Source of the DNA: Actinospica robiniae DSM 44927
Lineage (GTDB): Bacteria; Actinomycetota; Actinomycetes; Streptomycetales; Catenulisporaceae
Assembly: GCF_000504285.1 (NCBI RefSeq)
Contig: NZ_KI632511.1
Location: 124,001 to 188,000, forward strand
Length of the DNA: 64,000 nucleotides
Direction: 5' to 3'
Both the position numbers and the translations under genes were made by a program. Under the pieces are notes generated by a model, which searched no databases, was not told the origin of the DNA, and saw only the letters and a program-made list of their open reading frames with translations. Positions 41,326 through 53,036 of this stretch are shown here, piece after piece (position 1 is the stretch's first letter; the number at the start of each line of letters is the position of its first letter).

Positions 41326-41522
41326 GACGGCAGTTTTCCACGGGGTGATCTGATCGGGAGTCGATCGAGCCCCGGGAAAGCCGTGCTGGACCCGGCCGCC
41401 GCGCATGGTTCAGCCGATTCAGGGGACCGGGTAACCCGGCTGCCTCAGGGCACGATGTGGCCTCCCGATGGCACACTCGGCCCTGGCCCTTCGAGGGAGT
41501 CTTTCGTATCGAGGAGATAGGA

Positions 41523-42278
41523 GTGGCTGCGACCGCGGGATGGCCGGGAGAACCCGGTGGCACCGGTGATCTGTCGGAGGGCGGGAGCCAGCGCGGTGAA
41601 CCGATACTGCCGGCGGGTCTGCTGGCGGCGGCGGAGGCTGCGGCGCCGCAGTTGTCGGTGACCGACGCCATGGGGCTCGACGTGAACGCGGCCCTGCTGG
41701 CCACCGTGGCGGTCGGCGCATTACGTCGGGCCCGCCGGGCCGGCGCGGACCTGGCCGAACAAGCCCACGAGGCCGACCGCGCCCTGCGCGAGCACGGCCA
41801 TCAGGGCTACGCCACCGGGCAGCTGCTGCGCCTCAACTTGCGGGACGGTACGAGCGAGTTCGTCAACGCCGGTCACCCCTGGCCGCTGCAGATGCGCGAC
41901 GGGAAGGTGTGGGAAATCGTCCCGGAAGTCCACATGCCGTTCGGATTCAGCCACTACTTCCATACGCAGTCCAAGACCGGCTATCGCGTGCAGTCACTCG
42001 ACCTGCGGCCAGGTGACAGGCTCGTGATCGTGACGGACGGGATGCTGGAGCGCAACGCCGCAGGCCTGGATTTGGTGGACTTGGTCGCGCGCACCCGGCA
42101 GTTGCACCCCAGGGAGGCTTCCCGTGCGCTGGTCGGGGCGGTCGTCGATGCCAGCGATGGTCACCTGTGTGACGACGCGACCGTCATGTGCCTGGACTGG
42201 CATGGCTCGGCCCACTCATATCGCGACGCCGCCACCGGTGCCGACCTGAGCAGCGCCTCGCATCGCAACACCACGTGA
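41523..42278 (+). CDS. SpoIIE-type PP2C phosphatase lacking its first metal motif
   Basis: A 251-residue protein. From V-T-D-A-M-G-L-D-V-N-A-A-L-L-A-T onward it matches the RsbU/SpoIIE phosphatase fold, through F-V-N-A-G-H-P-W-P-L, L-V-I-V-T-D-G-M-L-E and C-D-D-A-T-V-M-C-L-D. The preceding G-G-D-x-F/Y-D block that helps bind the two metals is absent. The sequence jumps from an N-terminal A-A-E-A-A-A-P segment straight to L-S-V-T-D, suggesting an internal deletion of about 25 residues. GAGGAGATAG precedes the GTG at 41523. It may be inactive, or a binding-only relative. Confidence 0.6.
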   Translation: MAATAGWPGEPGGTGDLSEGGSQRGEPILPAGLLAAAEAAAPQLSVTDAMGLDVNAALLATVAVGALRRARRAGADLAEQAHEADRALREHGHQGYATGQLLRLNLRDGTSEFVNAGHPWPLQMRDGKVWEIVPEVHMPFGFSHYFHTQSKTGYRVQSLDLRPGDRLVIVTDGMLERNAAGLDLVDLVARTRQLHPREASRALVGAVVDASDGHLCDDATVMCLDWHGSAHSYRDAATGADLSSASHRNTT

Positions 42279-42365: not shown

Positions 42366-42668
42366 TCAGGACGTCGACGCGGAGGCCGGGCGGACCGTGG
42401 CGATGCCGGCGAGCCCCGAGTGGGTCAGGACAGGTAGCAACAGGTCTGGGGCTAAGAGCTCCAGGCGATCGGCGTGAGCGAACAGAATGCCCAGGCCGGC
42501 GCTGTCGAGATACTCGACTGCGGTGAGGTCGAGCGTGACCGGGCCGGGCAGCGCCTCGAGCGCGGCGGCGAGCTCGGCCGTGTTCGTCATGTCGATCTCG
42601 CCCGCGGCGGTCAGCAGATCTCTTCCGTCGGGGCGTCGCCCGGATGTGAGGGTCAGCGGCGTGGTCAT
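42366..42668 (-). CDS. STAS domain protein, anti-sigma factor antagonist
   Basis: A 100-residue single STAS domain. G-E-I-D-M-T-N-T-A-E-L and L-T-A-V-E-Y-L-D-S-A-G-L-G-I-L-F are the two signature parts; the Ser of D-S-A-G is the phosphorylation site in this family. Its ATG overlaps the stop of the large hybrid kinase gene by 4 bp (ATGA), so the two are translationally coupled. The STAS protein is very probably the substrate of that protein's RsbW-like kinase and SpoIIE phosphatase domains. Confidence 0.9.
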   Translation of the reverse strand: MTTPLTLTSGRRPDGRDLLTAAGEIDMTNTAELAAALEALPGPVTLDLTAVEYLDSAGLGILFAHADRLELLAPDLLLPVLTHSGLAGIATVRPASASTS

Positions 42669-45600
42669 GGAATCCTCACCTGCAACTGGACGGTGGTGCC
42701 TTCGGCGCCGGGGGTGATGACGGCCTGGTGGGTCAGAGCACGCATGAGGGCGATTCCGCGGCCGCGGTGTACGGAAGCTTCGGCATGCGGGGGCCTCCAC
42801 TGCCCGGAGTCGACGACGGTGACGGACAGTTCGGCGACGGTGGCCGCGGCCCGGAGGTGGACGGTCCCCGGACGGTGGTGATGTCCGTGCTCGATGGCGT
42901 TGGCGCAAGCTTCTCCGACCGCCACCAGGATGTTGTGTGTCGACTGCGGCGGCAGTCCGCACTGTCCGAGCCAGGCGCGCAGAGTTTGGCGGACGGGTGC
43001 GAGCTGGGCGGAGTCGGCGGGGAAGCTCATCTCCAGCGGCGCGGGATGGCGGTAGATGAGCAGGGCGACGTCGTCGTCATAGCCGTCGGCCGGGGCCAGA
43101 TCGGTCATGACGTCGGTGGCCAGTTGGTCGACCGGGGTGGCCCTGCCCTGCTGGATGGCGGCGCTGGCCCGGTCTATGCCGACCGTCAGCGACTGGCGGC
43201 GGCGTTCGACCAGCCCGTCGGTGTAGAGCAGCACGGTGGCGCGGGGGCTGACGGTCGTTTGCGCTTCCGGGCGTTCGGCTCCGACGCGTACGGCCAGCGG
43301 GATGGAGCCGGCCTGGTCCAGGAAGTGGGTGGAGCCGTCGGGATCGACGACGATGCCGGGCGGGTGGCCGGCGCTGGAGTAGGTCAGCTGGCCGTTGGCC
43401 GGATCCAGAACGCCGCAGAACACGGTGGTGCACATGGCGCCGGGGATCAGCGCGGCGAAGCGGTCGAGGGCCGCGAGGACGTGCGCGGGCCCGGCCTCCT
43501 GCAGGAGCAGGGCGCGGCAGGCGCTGCGCAGCTGACCCATGACAGTGGCCGCTTCCAGACCGCGTCCGACGCAGTCCCCGACGACGATGCCGATACGGCC
43601 GTCGGCCAGCGTGACCGTGTCGTACCAGTCGCCACCGATCTTCAAGGGCCGGGCCGCCGGCTCGTACCGCACAGCGAAGCCGTCCGGCAGGTGGGCGGGC
43701 CCGAGGATGGCGCGCTGCAGCGCCAGGGCCGTCTCACGTTGCTGGTCGGCTTGGTGGATTCGGTTCAGCTGCTGGCCGAGGCGGCTTGCGAGCAGCGACA
43801 GCAGGAGCTGGTCCTGGTCGGTGAACGGCCGCCGCGCGCCGAGATCGATCCACAGCGTGAGCAGTCCGGCGGGGTGTTCGAGCGCAACGCCGGCGCCGGT
43901 GCGCTCGGCCGCCGGGGTCAGCAGGGGCCCGTCACGCAGCGCGCTGAGCGCCCGGCGCCGCGGCTCGGGCAGTTCCGGCCAGCTCGCGGTCCCGTCGGTG
44001 GACGCGGTCGCGGGCTGATCGGCGCCGTCGAAGACGGCGGCGATCACGTGCGCGGCGTTCCACAGGTCGCGCAACTCTTCGAGCGCGTCGCCCAGCGCGC
44101 TCGGGACGCTGTCGGACTCGGAAAGGCGGACGGTGAGGGCGGCCATGGCGGATTCGCGTTGAATGGCGTAGTGCTCGGCGGTGACGTCCCGGAACGTACC
44201 GACGATCACACGACGGCCGGTGTCGGGGTCGTACACCTGACTGAACGTCACGGTGATCCATACCCGGTGCCCGGTGCGGTGGACCAGCGGAACGGTGAAG
44301 GTGCCGCGTTCGCGTCCGATGAGCATCGAGAACGCCTCGGCGACCTGGCGGTGAGCCTGGGGATCGGTGTCCGCGTCGGGCCACCAGGGGTGCTGCGGAA
44401 GGTAGGGCAGAAGGTCCGGACCGTACCCGATGATGTCGGTGAACGCGTTGTTGATCTCGATGACCGCGCCGTCCTCGTCGCAGACGAAGAACGCCTCCTG
44501 CAGCGATTCGATCAGGGCATTGCGGTAGCGGGCGTGGTGGTTGCGCAGCCGGGCGAGCTCGATGTTGGCGCGTACACGGGCGAGCAGTTCGGCGGCGGCG
44601 AAGGGCTTGAAGAGGTAGTCGTCGGCGCCGGCGTGCAGTCCCCGGATGGAGGACTCCTGGCCGGCGCGGGCGGAGAGCAGCAGCACCGGCACGGCGACGG
44701 TGCGTGAGTCCGAGCGCAGTCGCCTGACCAGTTCGAGGCCGTCGAGGTTCGGCATCATCACGTCGCTGACCACCAGGTCGGGGGCTTCGGCGCGGGCCGC
44801 GTCGAGGGCCTCGCGCCCGTCTTCGACCGCGCTTACCCGGTAGCCGGCCGTGCCGAGCAGACGGACGAGGTACTCGCGCATATCGGCGTTGTCGTCGGCG
44901 ATCAGCACGCGGGCCGCACGTACCCCGGCGGAGGCCGCCTCGCCGTTCGCCGTGAGGTCCACCATCTCGGGCAGGGCGTGTTCGGTCTCGTGCGGCAGCC
45001 AGCGCAGGGCCTCCTGCACGAAGGGCTCGGCGCTGAGCGAGGCTGCGGAGGCGTCCGACGCCGGCGCCAGGGCTTCGCCGGGAAGATGGTCGTGGCCGAA
45101 CGGGAGCCGGATGGTGAAACAGGTGCCCTGGCCGGTGCGGCTCTCGGCGCCGATGCTGCCGCCGTGCAGCTGGACGAGCTCCTTGACCAGTGCCAAGCCG
45201 ATACCGCTGCCCTCGTTCGAACGGGACCGGGCGTTCTCGATGCGGTGGAAGCGTTCGAACAGCCGCGGCATCTCCGTCTCGGGCACGCCGATGCCGGTGT
45301 CGCTCACGGTGACCACGGCGCGATCCGACTCCGTGCGCACGCCGACGCGGATGGAACCGTCGAAGGTGAACTTCAGGGCGTTGCTCAGAAGGTTGAGGAT
45401 CACCTTCTCCCACATGCCGCGGTCGAGGTAGACGGGCCTGGCCGCGGGCTCGCAGTCCACTTCCAGGCGCAGACCCGCCTTGTCGACGGCGGAGCGGAAG
45501 ACGCTGGCCAGTTCCGCCGTGACCGCCGCCAGGTCGACCGGCTCGTAGCGGGCCTGCATCCGGCCGGCCTCGATGCGCGAGAAGTCCAGCAGGGTGTTGA

Positions 45601-46843
45601 CGAGCTTGCCGAGCCGAAGTCCGTTCCGGCGGACGACCTCGAGCTCCTCGCGCACGCGCGGGTCGGCGTCGGCCAGCTGGTCGCGCAGCTCCTCGACCGG
45701 ACCCATGATCAAGGTGAGCGGTGTGCGGAATTCGTGGCTGACGTTGGAGAAGAACGCGGTCTTGGCGCGGTCCAGCTCGGCCAGTTCCTCCGCGCGCCGC
45801 TGCTGCGCCTGGTAGCTGCGGGCGCTGCCGATGCCCGAGGCCAGGTGGCCTGCGGCCAGCTCGACGAAACCGCGGTAGCGCTCGTCGAGCAGGCGGTAAC
45901 GGTTGAGAGCCGCGACGAAGAACCCGTAGGGCGAGCCGCCCTGCGCCGCGAGCGGCACCGCCAACGCCTGGACCGGCGGCTCCGGCCACGCTCCACGAGG
46001 CAGATCCTTGGACGCCGTCGGCTCGAGATCCACGAGCACCGATTCACCGCGAGCCAAAGCCTCCAGAGGCCACAACGGGTCGGCGTCCTCCGGCGTGATG
46101 ACGGATCGCGCGAGGCGGTGTCCGGCCGCGAGGCCGGTCGCGCCGGCAAGCCGCGCGACCTCGGAGTTCTGCTCGAACAGGTAGGTCGCGGTGAACGGCA
46201 GGTCACGGCCGTTGCGAGCCAGCTGCAGGTCGGCGAACTCCAGCATCTGCGCCTCAGTGCGCACCACGCTGGGATCGGATCCGAGATCGCGCAACGTCGC
46301 CATCTGCCGCTCGCCGATGACCCGCTCCGTCTCCTCGCTCACCACGCAGAGCATGCCGACCACCGCGCCGTGGTCGTCGCGAAGCGGGCTGTAGGAGAAG
46401 GTGTGATAGCTCTCCTCCAGGTAGCCGGAACGCTCCACCAGCAGAAGCAGCGCCTGGTCCCAGGTCGCCTTGCCGGTGCGCAGCACCGTGTCGATGCGCG
46501 GGCCGATGTCCTGCCAGATCTCGGACCACACCTCGCTGGCCGGCCGCCCCAGGGCCCAGGGATACTTGCGGCCCAAGGTGTCGCGACGGTAGGCGGCGTT
46601 GCAGAAGAACGTCATCTCCGGGCCCCAGGCCATCCACATGGCGAACCGGGACGAAAGCAGGATGTCGACCGCCGTCTGCAGGCTCTGCGGCCAGGTTCCG
46701 ACCGGCCCGAGCGGTGTCGCGGCCCAGTCCACGGCCGCGAGGTCGCGCCCGACCTCCTCGTCGGCGGCGAACACGCCCGGGACGGCGTCGACCGGCGCTC
46801 GACGCGTGACGTCCTCGGGGGTTGTCATGTCACTCGTCTCCAT
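42665..46843 (-). CDS. Hybrid histidine kinase-receiver-SpoIIE phosphatase-RsbW kinase
   Basis: A soluble signalling protein of 1392 residues. Order: PAS-like domain (~50-170); GAF-like region (~190-360); HisKA with the phospho-acceptor in N-V-S-H-E-F-R-T-P (near residue 370); HATPase with D-T-G-I-G-V-P (~514); receiver with S-D-V-M-M-P-N (Asp near 693); second PAS (~780-890); GAF-like (~900-1050); PP2C/SpoIIE from G-G-D-W-Y-D (~1071) to D-D-D-V-A-L-L; and a C-terminal RsbW-like ATPase (~1265-1392). Both two-component and partner-switching chemistry are on one chain. The METSDM start at 46843 was used; the ATG at 46828 is as good. The longer open frame upstream is shadow of other genes. The STAS gene overlaps its 3' end. 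Confidence 0.9.
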   Translation of the reverse strand: METSDMTTPEDVTRRAPVDAVPGVFAADEEVGRDLAAVDWAATPLGPVGTWPQSLQTAVDILLSSRFAMWMAWGPEMTFFCNAAYRRDTLGRKYPWALGRPASEVWSEIWQDIGPRIDTVLRTGKATWDQALLLLVERSGYLEESYHTFSYSPLRDDHGAVVGMLCVVSEETERVIGERQMATLRDLGSDPSVVRTEAQMLEFADLQLARNGRDLPFTATYLFEQNSEVARLAGATGLAAGHRLARSVITPEDADPLWPLEALARGESVLVDLEPTASKDLPRGAWPEPPVQALAVPLAAQGGSPYGFFVAALNRYRLLDERYRGFVELAAGHLASGIGSARSYQAQQRRAEELAELDRAKTAFFSNVSHEFRTPLTLIMGPVEELRDQLADADPRVREELEVVRRNGLRLGKLVNTLLDFSRIEAGRMQARYEPVDLAAVTAELASVFRSAVDKAGLRLEVDCEPAARPVYLDRGMWEKVILNLLSNALKFTFDGSIRVGVRTESDRAVVTVSDTGIGVPETEMPRLFERFHRIENARSRSNEGSGIGLALVKELVQLHGGSIGAESRTGQGTCFTIRLPFGHDHLPGEALAPASDASAASLSAEPFVQEALRWLPHETEHALPEMVDLTANGEAASAGVRAARVLIADDNADMREYLVRLLGTAGYRVSAVEDGREALDAARAEAPDLVVSDVMMPNLDGLELVRRLRSDSRTVAVPVLLLSARAGQESSIRGLHAGADDYLFKPFAAAELLARVRANIELARLRNHHARYRNALIESLQEAFFVCDEDGAVIEINNAFTDIIGYGPDLLPYLPQHPWWPDADTDPQAHRQVAEAFSMLIGRERGTFTVPLVHRTGHRVWITVTFSQVYDPDTGRRVIVGTFRDVTAEHYAIQRESAMAALTVRLSESDSVPSALGDALEELRDLWNAAHVIAAVFDGADQPATASTDGTASWPELPEPRRRALSALRDGPLLTPAAERTGAGVALEHPAGLLTLWIDLGARRPFTDQDQLLLSLLASRLGQQLNRIHQADQQRETALALQRAILGPAHLPDGFAVRYEPAARPLKIGGDWYDTVTLADGRIGIVVGDCVGRGLEAATVMGQLRSACRALLLQEAGPAHVLAALDRFAALIPGAMCTTVFCGVLDPANGQLTYSSAGHPPGIVVDPDGSTHFLDQAGSIPLAVRVGAERPEAQTTVSPRATVLLYTDGLVERRRQSLTVGIDRASAAIQQGRATPVDQLATDVMTDLAPADGYDDDVALLIYRHPAPLEMSFPADSAQLAPVRQTLRAWLGQCGLPPQSTHNILVAVGEACANAIEHGHHHRPGTVHLRAAATVAELSVTVVDSGQWRPPHAEASVHRGRGIALMRALTHQAVITPGAEGTTVQLQVRIP

Positions 46844-51272: not shown

Positions 51273-51615
51273 CGCAGTCGGGACCGTTTCGGGCGCGTTA
51301 TCGCGATTTGATGATCGGCTGAGTGCTTGTGGCGCGTGGCGGCTTGTCGGGTCGGGGTGGTCGTCGGGCTGTGGGCGGCCGCTTCGCGTCGCCCGGTTCG
51401 TCTGACCACCCGCCCACCCGTTGCGTTGGCGGGGCGGGCTGGGGTTTCAAGATCAAAGGTGCCGCTGGCAGGCCCTTCCTCGGAGAGTGCCGGGGTCGCG
51501 TGGGTGCTGTCGTTGGTGGGGCGGGCTGGGGTTCGGGGTGGTGGGGTGAGCGTCCCCCGGGTTGCCGGTTGATCGGACCCGTGGCGTGATGGATGAGGTG
51601 AAGGGAGTCGGTCTG

Positions 51616-51966
51616 ATGGCTGGTCAGAGGAAGTATCCGCCGGAGTTGCGGGAGCGGGCGGTGGCGATGTATCGGGCGGCGGAGGAGAAGCCGGTGGTGC
51701 GGGCGATGGCCCGTCAGCTCGGTGTGCATCCGGAGGCGCTGCGTGAGTGGATCCGTAAGGACGAGGAGGCCCGGTGCTCGGGTCCGGGCCGGGGTGGTGC
51801 TCGCCGCGGCGCGCTCGTGGATGTGCCGGAGCTTCCGGCGCAGGTGGAGGCGGAGCTGGCGGGGCTGCGCAAGGAGGTGATGGAGCTGCGGCGGGCGAAT
51901 GAGATCCTGCGGGCGGCGAGCGCGTATTTCGCGGTCCAGCTCGACCAGACCGGCCGGCGCTGCTGA
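51616..51966 (+). CDS. IS3-family transposase OrfA
   Basis: A 116-residue DNA-binding subunit. Y-P-P-E-L-R-E-R-A-V-A-M-Y begins a helix-turn-helix, with R-Q-L-G-V-H-P-E-A-L-R-E-W-I-R as the recognition part. A leucine-zipper-like helix follows (A-E-L-A-G-L-R-K-E-V-M-E-L-R-R-A-N-E-I-L). AAGGGAG precedes the ATG at 51616. It ends where the orfB frame, one base back, is already open. Confidence 0.9.
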   Translation: MAGQRKYPPELRERAVAMYRAAEEKPVVRAMARQLGVHPEALREWIRKDEEARCSGPGRGGARRGALVDVPELPAQVEAELAGLRKEVMELRRANEILRAASAYFAVQLDQTGRRC

Positions 51967-52007
51967 GGTTCCTCGAGGAGAACCAGGCGGCGTTCGGGGT
52001 CGAGCCC

Positions 52008-53036
52008 GTGCTCCGGGAGTTGGCGATAGCCCCGTCCACCTTCGGCGACTGGCGCCGGCGGGCTGTGGCGCCGTGCGCGCGGCAGGTGCGTGATGCCGAG
52101 TTGCTCGCGCGCATCCGCGAGGTCCACGCCGACTCGGGCGGGGTGTACGGCTCCCCGCGGGTGCACGCGGTGCTGCGGCGCGAGGGCGAGGCGGTCTCGC
52201 GCAAGCGGGTCGAGCGGCTGATGCGCGAGAACGGCATCGTCGGGGTGAGCCCGGCGCGCAAGGTGCGCACCACGATCCCGGACCCGGATGATCCCCGGCC
52301 CGCGGACGCGGTCAACCGGCGCTTCACCGCGGTGGGACCGAACCGTTTGTGGGTCACCGACCTGACCGTGATCGCCACCGGTGAGGGGCCGTTGTGGCTC
52401 GCCTCGATCCGCGACGCGTTCTCCCGCAAGGTCATCGCGTGGGAGAGCAGCGATGTCGCGGACGCGGACCTGGTGTGCGCGGTCCTCGAGTACGCGCTGC
52501 GCTCCAGGCGCCCGCCTGCCGACGGCAGCCTCGTGCACCACGCGGACCACGGGTCGCAGTACACCTCGATCAAGCTGAGCACGCGGCTGGTGCGGGCCGG
52601 GATCACCGCGTCCATGGGCACGGTCGGGGACTCCTACGACAACGCCCTGGCCGAGAACATGTGGTCCACGCTCAAGACCGAGTGCGTGCGCCGCCGGGAG
52701 TTCGCCACCCGGGCCGAGGCGAACCAGGCCCTGTTCGAATACCTCGACGGGTTCTACAACCCGCGAAGGATCCAGCGCAATCTCGGCTACCGATCCCCGG
52801 ACGAGTACGAAGCCGCCCACGACGCTGGCGAGTTGACCGCGGCCGACCTCGAGCGACTGGCGCGCGATGCGACCCGTCGCCGCCACCGCCGCACCGAGCG
52901 CGCGAAAAGCCCGGCACTACCGGCCGGCCCGCAGGCCCGGCAACTGCCCGGACAGCGACCCACACCCACCGCCAAACGGGTACCCCCATCCGGGCGAACC
53001 CGGCCACAACAAGAAAACACCAGATCAACGGGCTAG
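52008..53036 (+). CDS. IS3-family transposase OrfB (DDE integrase core)
   Basis: Catalytic part of the transposase. In the numbering from GTG 52008, the DDE residues are D118 (W-V-T-D-L-T), D180 (H-H-A-D-H-G-S-Q-Y) and E216 (L-A-E-N-M-W), with the D35E spacing exact. The frame is open back to ~51960 and reads F-L-E-E-N-Q-A-A-F-G-V-E-P there. It is probably made mainly as an OrfAB fusion by -1 frameshifting near 51950. All catalytic residues are present, so the IS may be active. Confidence 0.9.
   Translation: MLRELAIAPSTFGDWRRRAVAPCARQVRDAELLARIREVHADSGGVYGSPRVHAVLRREGEAVSRKRVERLMRENGIVGVSPARKVRTTIPDPDDPRPADAVNRRFTAVGPNRLWVTDLTVIATGEGPLWLASIRDAFSRKVIAWESSDVADADLVCAVLEYALRSRRPPADGSLVHHADHGSQYTSIKLSTRLVRAGITASMGTVGDSYDNALAENMWSTLKTECVRRREFATRAEANQALFEYLDGFYNPRRIQRNLGYRSPDEYEAAHDAGELTAADLERLARDATRRRHRRTERAKSPALPAGPQARQLPGQRPTPTAKRVPPSGRTRPQQENTRSTG

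Follow-up and report, generated by a model that had tools for sequence, protein, structure and literature searches.

Domain architecture of the fused chain

The window, a 64,000-nucleotide stretch of Actinospica robiniae DSM 44927 (contig NZ_KI632511.1, positions 124,001 to 188,000), contains a gene for a long fused protein, a small STAS gene that overlaps its end and a second STAS gene on the opposite strand (Table 1). From its N-terminus the fused protein has the order PAS-GAF-HisKA-HATPase-REC-PAS-GAF-SpoIIE-RsbW, as the earlier note had proposed for its 1392 residues. Pfam supports this order except at the second GAF, for which there was no Pfam match in the window protein. Residues 889-1046 were modelled (mean pLDDT 92.6), and a fold search with this model gave mostly GAF-containing structures, so that the claimed second GAF, and with it the whole architecture, holds. 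The GGDWYD motif of the PP2C domain lies at residues 1070-1075. In an NCBIfam search the best 25 of 164 families all scored below their cut-offs. The highest hydrophobicity of any 19-residue segment was 1.64, at residue 1129; as this peak falls inside the PP2C domain, membrane anchoring is unlikely, and from its sequence the chain is probably cytoplasmic. An in-frame ATG at 46828 (MTTPED...), with GGAG upstream, would give a protein of 1387 residues and is a plausible alternative to the start at 46843.

Table 1. Genes, domains and presumed key codons of the fused chain and its STAS neighbours (positions in the window)
Feature	Residues	Position	Strand	Remarks
Hybrid histidine kinase/PP2C phosphatase/RsbW kinase chain	1392 aa plus stop	42665..46843	(-)	
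N-terminal PAS-like sensor	24-180	46304..46774	(-)	boundaries approximate; Pfam PAS_4 in two stretches
GAF 1 (Pfam GAF_2)	228-337	45833..46162	(-)	above Pfam cut-off
HisKA dimerisation/phospho-acceptor domain	360-427	45563..45766	(-)	above Pfam cut-off
His370 codon of HisKA	370	45736-45734	(-)	
HATPase_c of histidine kinase	479-582	45098..45409	(-)	above Pfam cut-off
Receiver (REC, Response_reg)	646-758	44570..44908	(-)	above Pfam cut-off
Asp694 codon of REC	694	44764-44762	(-)	
PAS 2 (PAS_4)	779-891	44171..44509	(-)	above Pfam cut-off
GAF 2 and long C-terminal helix to PP2C	helix 1009-1046	43706..44146	(-)	models, fold search
SpoIIE-type PP2C	1081-1266	43046..43603	(-)	above Pfam cut-off
RsbW-type ATPase/kinase (HATPase_c_2)	1274-1388	42680..43024	(-)	above Pfam cut-off; E1311, N1315
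STAS protein	100 aa	42366..42668	(-)	4-bp overlap (ATGA) with the fused-chain gene stop
Ser56 codon of STAS	56	42503-42501	(-)	
Second, divergent STAS gene	127 aa	47075..47458	(+)	Pfam

The fused chain belongs to a conserved family

A scan of genome contigs identified 195 stretches that encode relatives of the fused chain. The best 80 of these were fetched (51-71% identity in the best segment); their hosts include Streptomyces, Streptosporangium, Actinomadura, Actinoplanes, Frankia, Mycobacterium and others. Nearly the whole chain aligns in one frame in 77/80, the exceptions being L058 and L083, whose frames are broken, and L074, which a contig end truncates. Occurrence is patchy: 26 of 148 sampled genomes of the class matched at 1e-150, and the sensor part through to the C-terminus was covered in 12/148 (own genome counted; rows read by eye). 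Within the window's own family a match was present in 6/14 genomes (own included), and in five of the six it extends to the C-terminus. A tree of 94 sequences joins the window protein to nine from Actinoplanes and its kin (support 0.775) and keeps it apart from the copies of its own family, a placement that hints at horizontal transfer or an old paralogy. The 195 relatives, together with the recurring STAS overlap described below, argue that the fused arrangement is not due to chance; on sequence grounds it is a conserved family that recurs in many actinobacteria. The one-chain fusion pointed out in the earlier note is therefore real. It is less singular than the earlier note implied, since related HK-REC-SpoIIE-RsbW chains with other C-termini exist and since a hybrid histidine kinase, a receiver, a PP2C phosphatase, a sigma factor and a STAS protein are also encoded by neighbouring genes elsewhere in this genome.

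Catalytic residues are kept in every module

Residue conservation was scored in the best 80 of the 195 relatives. His370 of the H-box and Asn488 of the N-box are invariant (80/80), and the ATP-lid glycines Gly545 and Gly547 of the histidine kinase are each present in 79/80, with one replacement apiece. The receiver residues Asp650, Asp651, Asp694, Ser724 and Lys746 are found in all 80. In the PP2C domain Asp1072 and Asp1090 are kept in 80/80, Asp1209 in 79/80 and Asp1257/Asp1258 in 78/80, the remainder being gaps; we take these to be the metal-binding aspartates of SpoIIE/RsbU-type phosphatases. Glu1311, Asn1315, Asp1345, Gly1347, Gly1361 and Gly1363, presumably the N-box Glu/Asn and the G boxes of the RsbW domain, are present in 78 of the 78 relatives that have this region, the rest again being gaps. 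The chain thus has the H-box, the N and G boxes and the fused receiver with phospho-acceptor Asp of a hybrid histidine kinase, the metal-binding Asp residues of a SpoIIE/RsbU-type PP2C and, by sequence, the N-box Glu/Asn and G boxes of an RsbW-type STAS kinase. Judged by sequence, none of the modules looks dead. The union of two-component and partner-switching modules on a single chain, as the earlier note had described it, accordingly holds, and the catalytic residues of the C-terminal modules, on which that proposal depended, are kept in relatives wherever these could be aligned.

An overlapping STAS gene follows the PP2C-RsbW end

The four-base overlap that had been claimed for the STAS gene was recovered at 42668, where ATGA joins the two reading frames, with a GAGG 5 nt upstream of the STAS start. 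The product matches Pfam STAS_2 (3.6e-9, above cut-off) and has the DS phospho-acceptor Ser of an anti-sigma factor antagonist. We compared 84 loci, namely the best 80 of the 195 relatives and four from the window's family. A normal-length STAS ORF begins at -1 or -4, counted from where the kinase gene ends, in 78/84, and the acceptor Ser56 was present in all of these (78/78) in a search that demanded no motif. Twelve further loci all have an overlapping STAS gene (12/12). A Shine-Dalgarno-like sequence precedes the start codon at 76 of 83 of the -1/-4 positions, compared with a control rate of 0.09, and the 83 include five that are not intact STAS starts; translational coupling of the STAS gene to the fused-chain gene would fit this arrangement. 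Among the exceptions, the STAS gene of L047 starts at -1 but is frameshifted, that of L090 overlaps by 17 bp, that of L066 lies 118 bp downstream of the kinase gene, and in L048 a STAS ORF is found about 1.3 kb downstream (E 9.8e-38). At L097 and L100 a STAS protein of the overlapping family was not found within about 6 kb, which suggests that the fused chain may not always require a STAS partner.

Two relatives, L155 and L160, consist by Pfam only of GAF-GAF-PP2C-RsbW, without a histidine kinase, and both keep the overlapping STAS gene. We also checked twelve distant relatives. Five of the twelve were scanned with Pfam, giving four HK-REC-SpoIIE-RsbW chains and one without RsbW. In 10/12 the 1.1-2.4 kb of downstream sequence gave no match to profiles built for the two STAS families of these loci, profiles which a more divergent STAS protein could escape; L163 has a STAS gene on the opposite strand and L172 an overlapping one. 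STAS coupling therefore marks the present subfamily and L172, and not the architecture as a whole.

Pairwise distances between STAS proteins were then compared with those of each domain of the chain in 70 loci, a set that omits L071 and L086, whose divergent N-termini dominated a first scan, the fragmentary L058, L083 and L074, loci without an aligned STAS, and L104-L107. The distances follow those of PP2C (r 0.87, partial 0.46), RsbW (r 0.82, partial 0.40) and GAF2 (r 0.80, partial 0.32), and the partial correlations for PAS1, GAF1, HisKA, HATPase, REC and PAS2 range from -0.10 to 0.09. By partial correlation PP2C comes first and RsbW second within the 49 non-mycobacteria and within the 21 mycobacteria alike. 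When L071 and L086 were retained, HisKA had a partial of 0.34 and REC of 0.16. Of the top 40 columns that follow a Gly58/Ala switch in the STAS protein, 33 lie in GAF2, PP2C and RsbW; we give these no weight because the switch mostly follows the division between mycobacteria and all other loci. The STAS protein is best tracked by the PP2C-RsbW end of the chain and appears to belong with it, and physical linkage and shared recombination could yield part of the gradient. The overlap in 78/84 and 12/12 loci and this co-divergence bear out the view that the STAS protein is the coupled partner of the fused chain.

Neighbouring genes and sigma factors

The second STAS gene lies divergently from the fused chain, as had been noted, and a similar gene is divergent within 3 kb at 27 of 81 loci (window counted), the match in L102 being weak and distant. 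Pfam also confirmed the further genes at 55-56 kb as HATPase_c_2 and STAS. A transposase-like gene pair (named by eye) separates them from the divergent STAS gene, and the distance of about 8 kb puts them beyond the 6-kb flanks that were compared between loci; relatives of their RsbW were found in those flanks at 6/80 loci. These genes, which the earlier note had listed alongside the fused chain, are thus present, but their distance and their rarity in the flanks led us to reject them as members of the module.

Using a profile built from the genome's six SigB/F/G-type sigma factors, all of which score above cut-off and lie elsewhere in the genome, we found no SigB-type sigma gene in the window at E 1e-4. 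Such a gene was present at 3/81 loci, each time at a distance of over 3 kb from the fused-chain gene, and several of the flanks compared are shorter than 6 kb; a linked sigma factor is not supported. The pattern that we take to represent SigB-type promoters gave no match in the window, where 0.28 were expected. The genome has 31 STAS matches. One of the six sigma factors, at 1.127 Mb, belongs to a cluster that also encodes a STAS protein, a HAMP-rich hybrid kinase ending in a receiver, a further receiver protein and a phosphatase of PAS-PP2C type; an RsbW kinase was not identified in this cluster. Much the same functions as in the fused chain are distributed there over separate proteins, an arrangement that recalls OsaA/OsaB as described in PMC9739842.

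Structure models of the receiver-to-RsbW region

Residues 640-1392 were modelled from 58 sequences (mean pLDDT 87.8); the pTM of 0.53 means that the placement of domains relative to each other is uncertain. In the model a 33-residue helix leaves the receiver, its last part (model residues 134-142) falling under pLDDT 50, a further helix joins PAS2 to GAF2, and a 38-residue helix precedes PP2C. The best fold match was the PP2C-RsbW tandem of Rv1364c from M. tuberculosis (Foldseek 2.5e-25; Z 28.0 over 331 aligned residues, rmsd 11.2), which is also the best sequence match of the PP2C-RsbW end (6.6e-51). The span of receiver and PP2C matches RssB of P. aeruginosa. Coiled-coil or helical linkers that pass the state of a sensor to PP2C dimers have been proposed as a general mechanism, as outlined in PMC12143880, and the long helices of our model are in keeping with it.

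A possible one-chain switch for a dedicated STAS protein

We favour, with some confidence, the reading that the fused chain is a multi-input switch for its dedicated STAS protein, in which a relay from His370 to Asp694 would set the balance of PP2C and RsbW activities; each reaction of this scheme, and its sign, we infer from sequence. The first PAS/GAF pair would control autophosphorylation of His370, and Asp694 of the fused receiver would take over the phosphoryl group. Through the helical linkers the receiver and the second PAS-GAF pair would then act on the PP2C dimer. The PP2C domain would dephosphorylate Ser56 of the STAS protein and the RsbW domain phosphorylate it, and with the two opposed on the same residue the signal would set the unphosphorylated fraction of STAS. 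Free STAS would act in trans, and its likeliest target would be an anti-sigma factor of one of the SigB-type sigma factors encoded elsewhere in the genome. That a phosphorelay biases the balance of kinase and phosphatase is plausible by analogy with RsfS/RsfR and SypE, and the direction of control could be either way. Docking loops on PP2C domains confer substrate specificity according to PMC11418112, and such loops would suit a dedicated STAS protein in a genome with this many STAS matches. A bolder version, which we regard as doubtful, is a conserved class in actinobacteria whose His-Asp phosphorylation switches the chain that carries it from STAS kinase to STAS phosphatase and back; the chain and its overlapping STAS gene of about 100 codons would together form a complete, portable converter of two-component signals into serine phosphorylation, with unlinked outputs that vary with lineage and are not necessarily sigma factors.

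Another reading of the STAS protein is that its gene is a mere operon mate and its product no substrate of the chain. Adjacency is not proof, the genome has 30 other STAS matches and one STAS gene lies divergently; yet the overlap recurs in 78/84 and 12/12 loci, the Ser is invariant, the STAS gene is kept where the histidine kinase is missing, and even the distant relative L172 has an overlapping copy, so that we consider this very unlikely. What the STAS protein acts on allows more latitude. It might feed a protein-protein switch instead of a sigma factor, as SypA does in Vibrio fischeri, and finding no sigma gene at 78/81 loci would agree with such an output. Sigma factors can, however, be encoded far from their regulators, and this genome is rich both in STAS genes and in SigB-type sigma factors, which leaves a non-sigma output improbable in our view. 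We judge about as unlikely a third arrangement, that the RsbW domain works mainly as an anti-sigma factor and holds a sigma factor directly, with STAS as its antagonist and the whole partner switch on the chain. Rv1364c, the closest solved relative, is reported in PMC10950880 to bind SigF in vitro, the OsaC kinase domain mediates an interaction with SigB according to PMC10117811, and six candidate sigma factors are available in the genome, whereas no sigma gene was found in the window and one was present at only 3/81 loci.

Control of the phosphatase could also run differently from the relay that we favour. For B. cereus RsbK the fused receiver has been reported to be an inhibitory element rather than part of a relay, and RsbK that lacks the receiver or is altered at D827 gives constitutive SigB, as described in PMC4574943. 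By the same token the receiver of the fused chain might merely tune the histidine kinase and leave PP2C to PAS2-GAF2 alone, and the kinase-less L155 and L160, which keep GAF-GAF-PP2C-RsbW and the STAS gene, are in line with this. Against it speak the position of the receiver between histidine kinase and PP2C, the helix (partly at pLDDT below 50) that connects receiver and PAS2 in the model, and the precedent of RsfR and RsbY, REC-PP2C proteins known to serve histidine kinases as outputs, as summarised in PMC10950880; on balance we give a purely tuning receiver little credence. The preferred reading remains the relay to PP2C and RsbW.

Comparison with known systems

REC-PP2C outputs, PP2C-RsbW-STAS chains and chains of RsbW, REC and PP2C are all known already, as are hybrid kinases that act in the control of sigma-B. 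The parts and the logic of the fused chain being known, we regard it as an extension and not as a new principle. New relative to the literature searched are the whole relay on one chain and the conserved overlapping STAS gene: among the matches listed, which covered open-licence PMC only, no paper describing an HK-REC-PP2C-RsbW chain was found, and this does not imply absence from print. The presumed catalytic steps from sensor to STAS switch would lie on one chain whose probable substrate is marked by the conserved overlap, and two purified proteins would suffice to study how a receiver governs Ser kinase and phosphatase activities that oppose each other.

The PP2C-RsbW tandem is common to the window chain and Rv1364c (PDB 3ke6). 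Rv1364c has the STAS domain on its own chain, behind PAS, PP2C and kinase, and no histidine kinase or receiver among the domains listed for it in PMC10950880; in our case a gene of its own, overlapping that of the chain, encodes the STAS protein, and a histidine kinase and receiver are fused in front. In the RsfS/RsfR system of M. smegmatis, as described in the same source, control likewise runs from a histidine kinase to a receiver, a PP2C phosphatase and a STAS protein (RsfB), and receiver phosphorylation lowers the phosphatase activity of RsfR, but the proteins are separate, as is the STAS kinase RsbW2. RssB of P. aeruginosa shares receiver, helical linker and PP2C with the window chain and has no kinase modules. 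A 2011 survey of RsbK-type kinases reportedly included actinobacteria. RsbK/RsbY of B. cereus resembles the window chain in linking a hybrid histidine kinase to a REC-PP2C phosphatase that acts on an RsbV-type STAS protein; it differs in that these are separate proteins, RsbK being transmembrane with CHASE3 (described in PMC4574943), whereas our PP2C is on the same chain as the kinase.

The hybrid kinases of S. coelicolor offer a further parallel. Their cascades are called unclear in PMC9739842, which states that no HPt proteins are known and counts SCO7327 as an orphan hybrid histidine kinase with a receiver; our suggestion is that the output of such kinases may be an intramolecular PP2C. SCO7327 is named OsaD in PMC9739823 and is perhaps a parallel of the fused chain. 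SCO7325, an RsbV homologue that acts on SigB according to PMC8346170, is close to it by gene number.

SypE of Vibrio fischeri has the domain order RsbW-REC-PP2C, and the window chain the order HK-REC-PAS-GAF-PP2C-RsbW. Both place RsbW, receiver and PP2C on one chain, in SypE with opposing activities on a separate STAS protein, SypA; as described in PMC12826045, however, SypE carries no histidine kinase.

Domain make-up and STAS gene placement in relatives of the kinase chain

At the locus L154, a histidine kinase (HK)-REC-PAS chain related to the window kinase ends in an ANTAR domain in place of the SpoIIE-type phosphatase (PP2C) and RsbW modules, which makes the output end swappable. At L155 and L160 (two genomes of one genus), GAF-GAF-SpoIIE-RsbW proteins are found without the HK and the same overlapping STAS gene is kept. 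In two mycobacterial relatives, L058 and L083, the kinase reading frame is broken and its C-terminal part lies in a different frame ahead of STAS, reflecting either decay or sequencing error.

At L048 the STAS gene of the window-type family is displaced from the kinase gene, and the intervening stretch looks like an insertion. A second STAS gene is located just downstream on the same strand, rather than divergently, at six loci (L036, L038, L047, L093, L094 and L099), each matching the divergent-STAS profile with E < 1e-20. Within the STAS protein, the relatives from mycobacteria, and certain others, differ at residues 57-59, so that the motif DSAGL reads DSAAI or DSGAI. The Ser is retained, and the Gly of the motif is dispensable in these proteins.

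Locations of the genes and clusters described
Feature	Location	Strand	Remarks
SpoIIE-type PP2C gene	window 41457-42278	+	convergent with STAS gene 42668-42366; Pfam profile match
Transposase-like gene pair, IS3 type	window 51562-53036	+	assigned by eye
HK-REC-PAS chain	L154:1354-4587	-	
Region of the displaced STAS gene	L048:10092-11406		STAS gene ~1.3 kb behind kinase gene, without overlap
L110	G000:C1:9408500-9419500		A. robiniae genome
L111 cluster	G000:C1:1123000-1134500		A. robiniae genome

Neighbouring genes and other loci in A. robiniae

The PP2C gene next to the kinase-STAS pair may be truncated or decayed, because its profile match begins only at profile position 7 and inspection by eye of the bases upstream revealed no GGDWYD-like first motif. 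The transposase-like pair separates the kinase-STAS locus from the RsbW/STAS genes at 55-56 kb.

Elsewhere in the genome, an ANTAR-GAF-PAS-SpoIIE gene at L110 is overlapped by a HAMP-rich hybrid kinase gene and also overlaps a further SpoIIE gene. The L111 cluster encodes a HAMP-rich hybrid histidine kinase-REC, a second REC protein, a PP2C, a SigB-type sigma factor and a STAS protein in separate genes; like OsaA/OsaB, it is a split form with similar logic.
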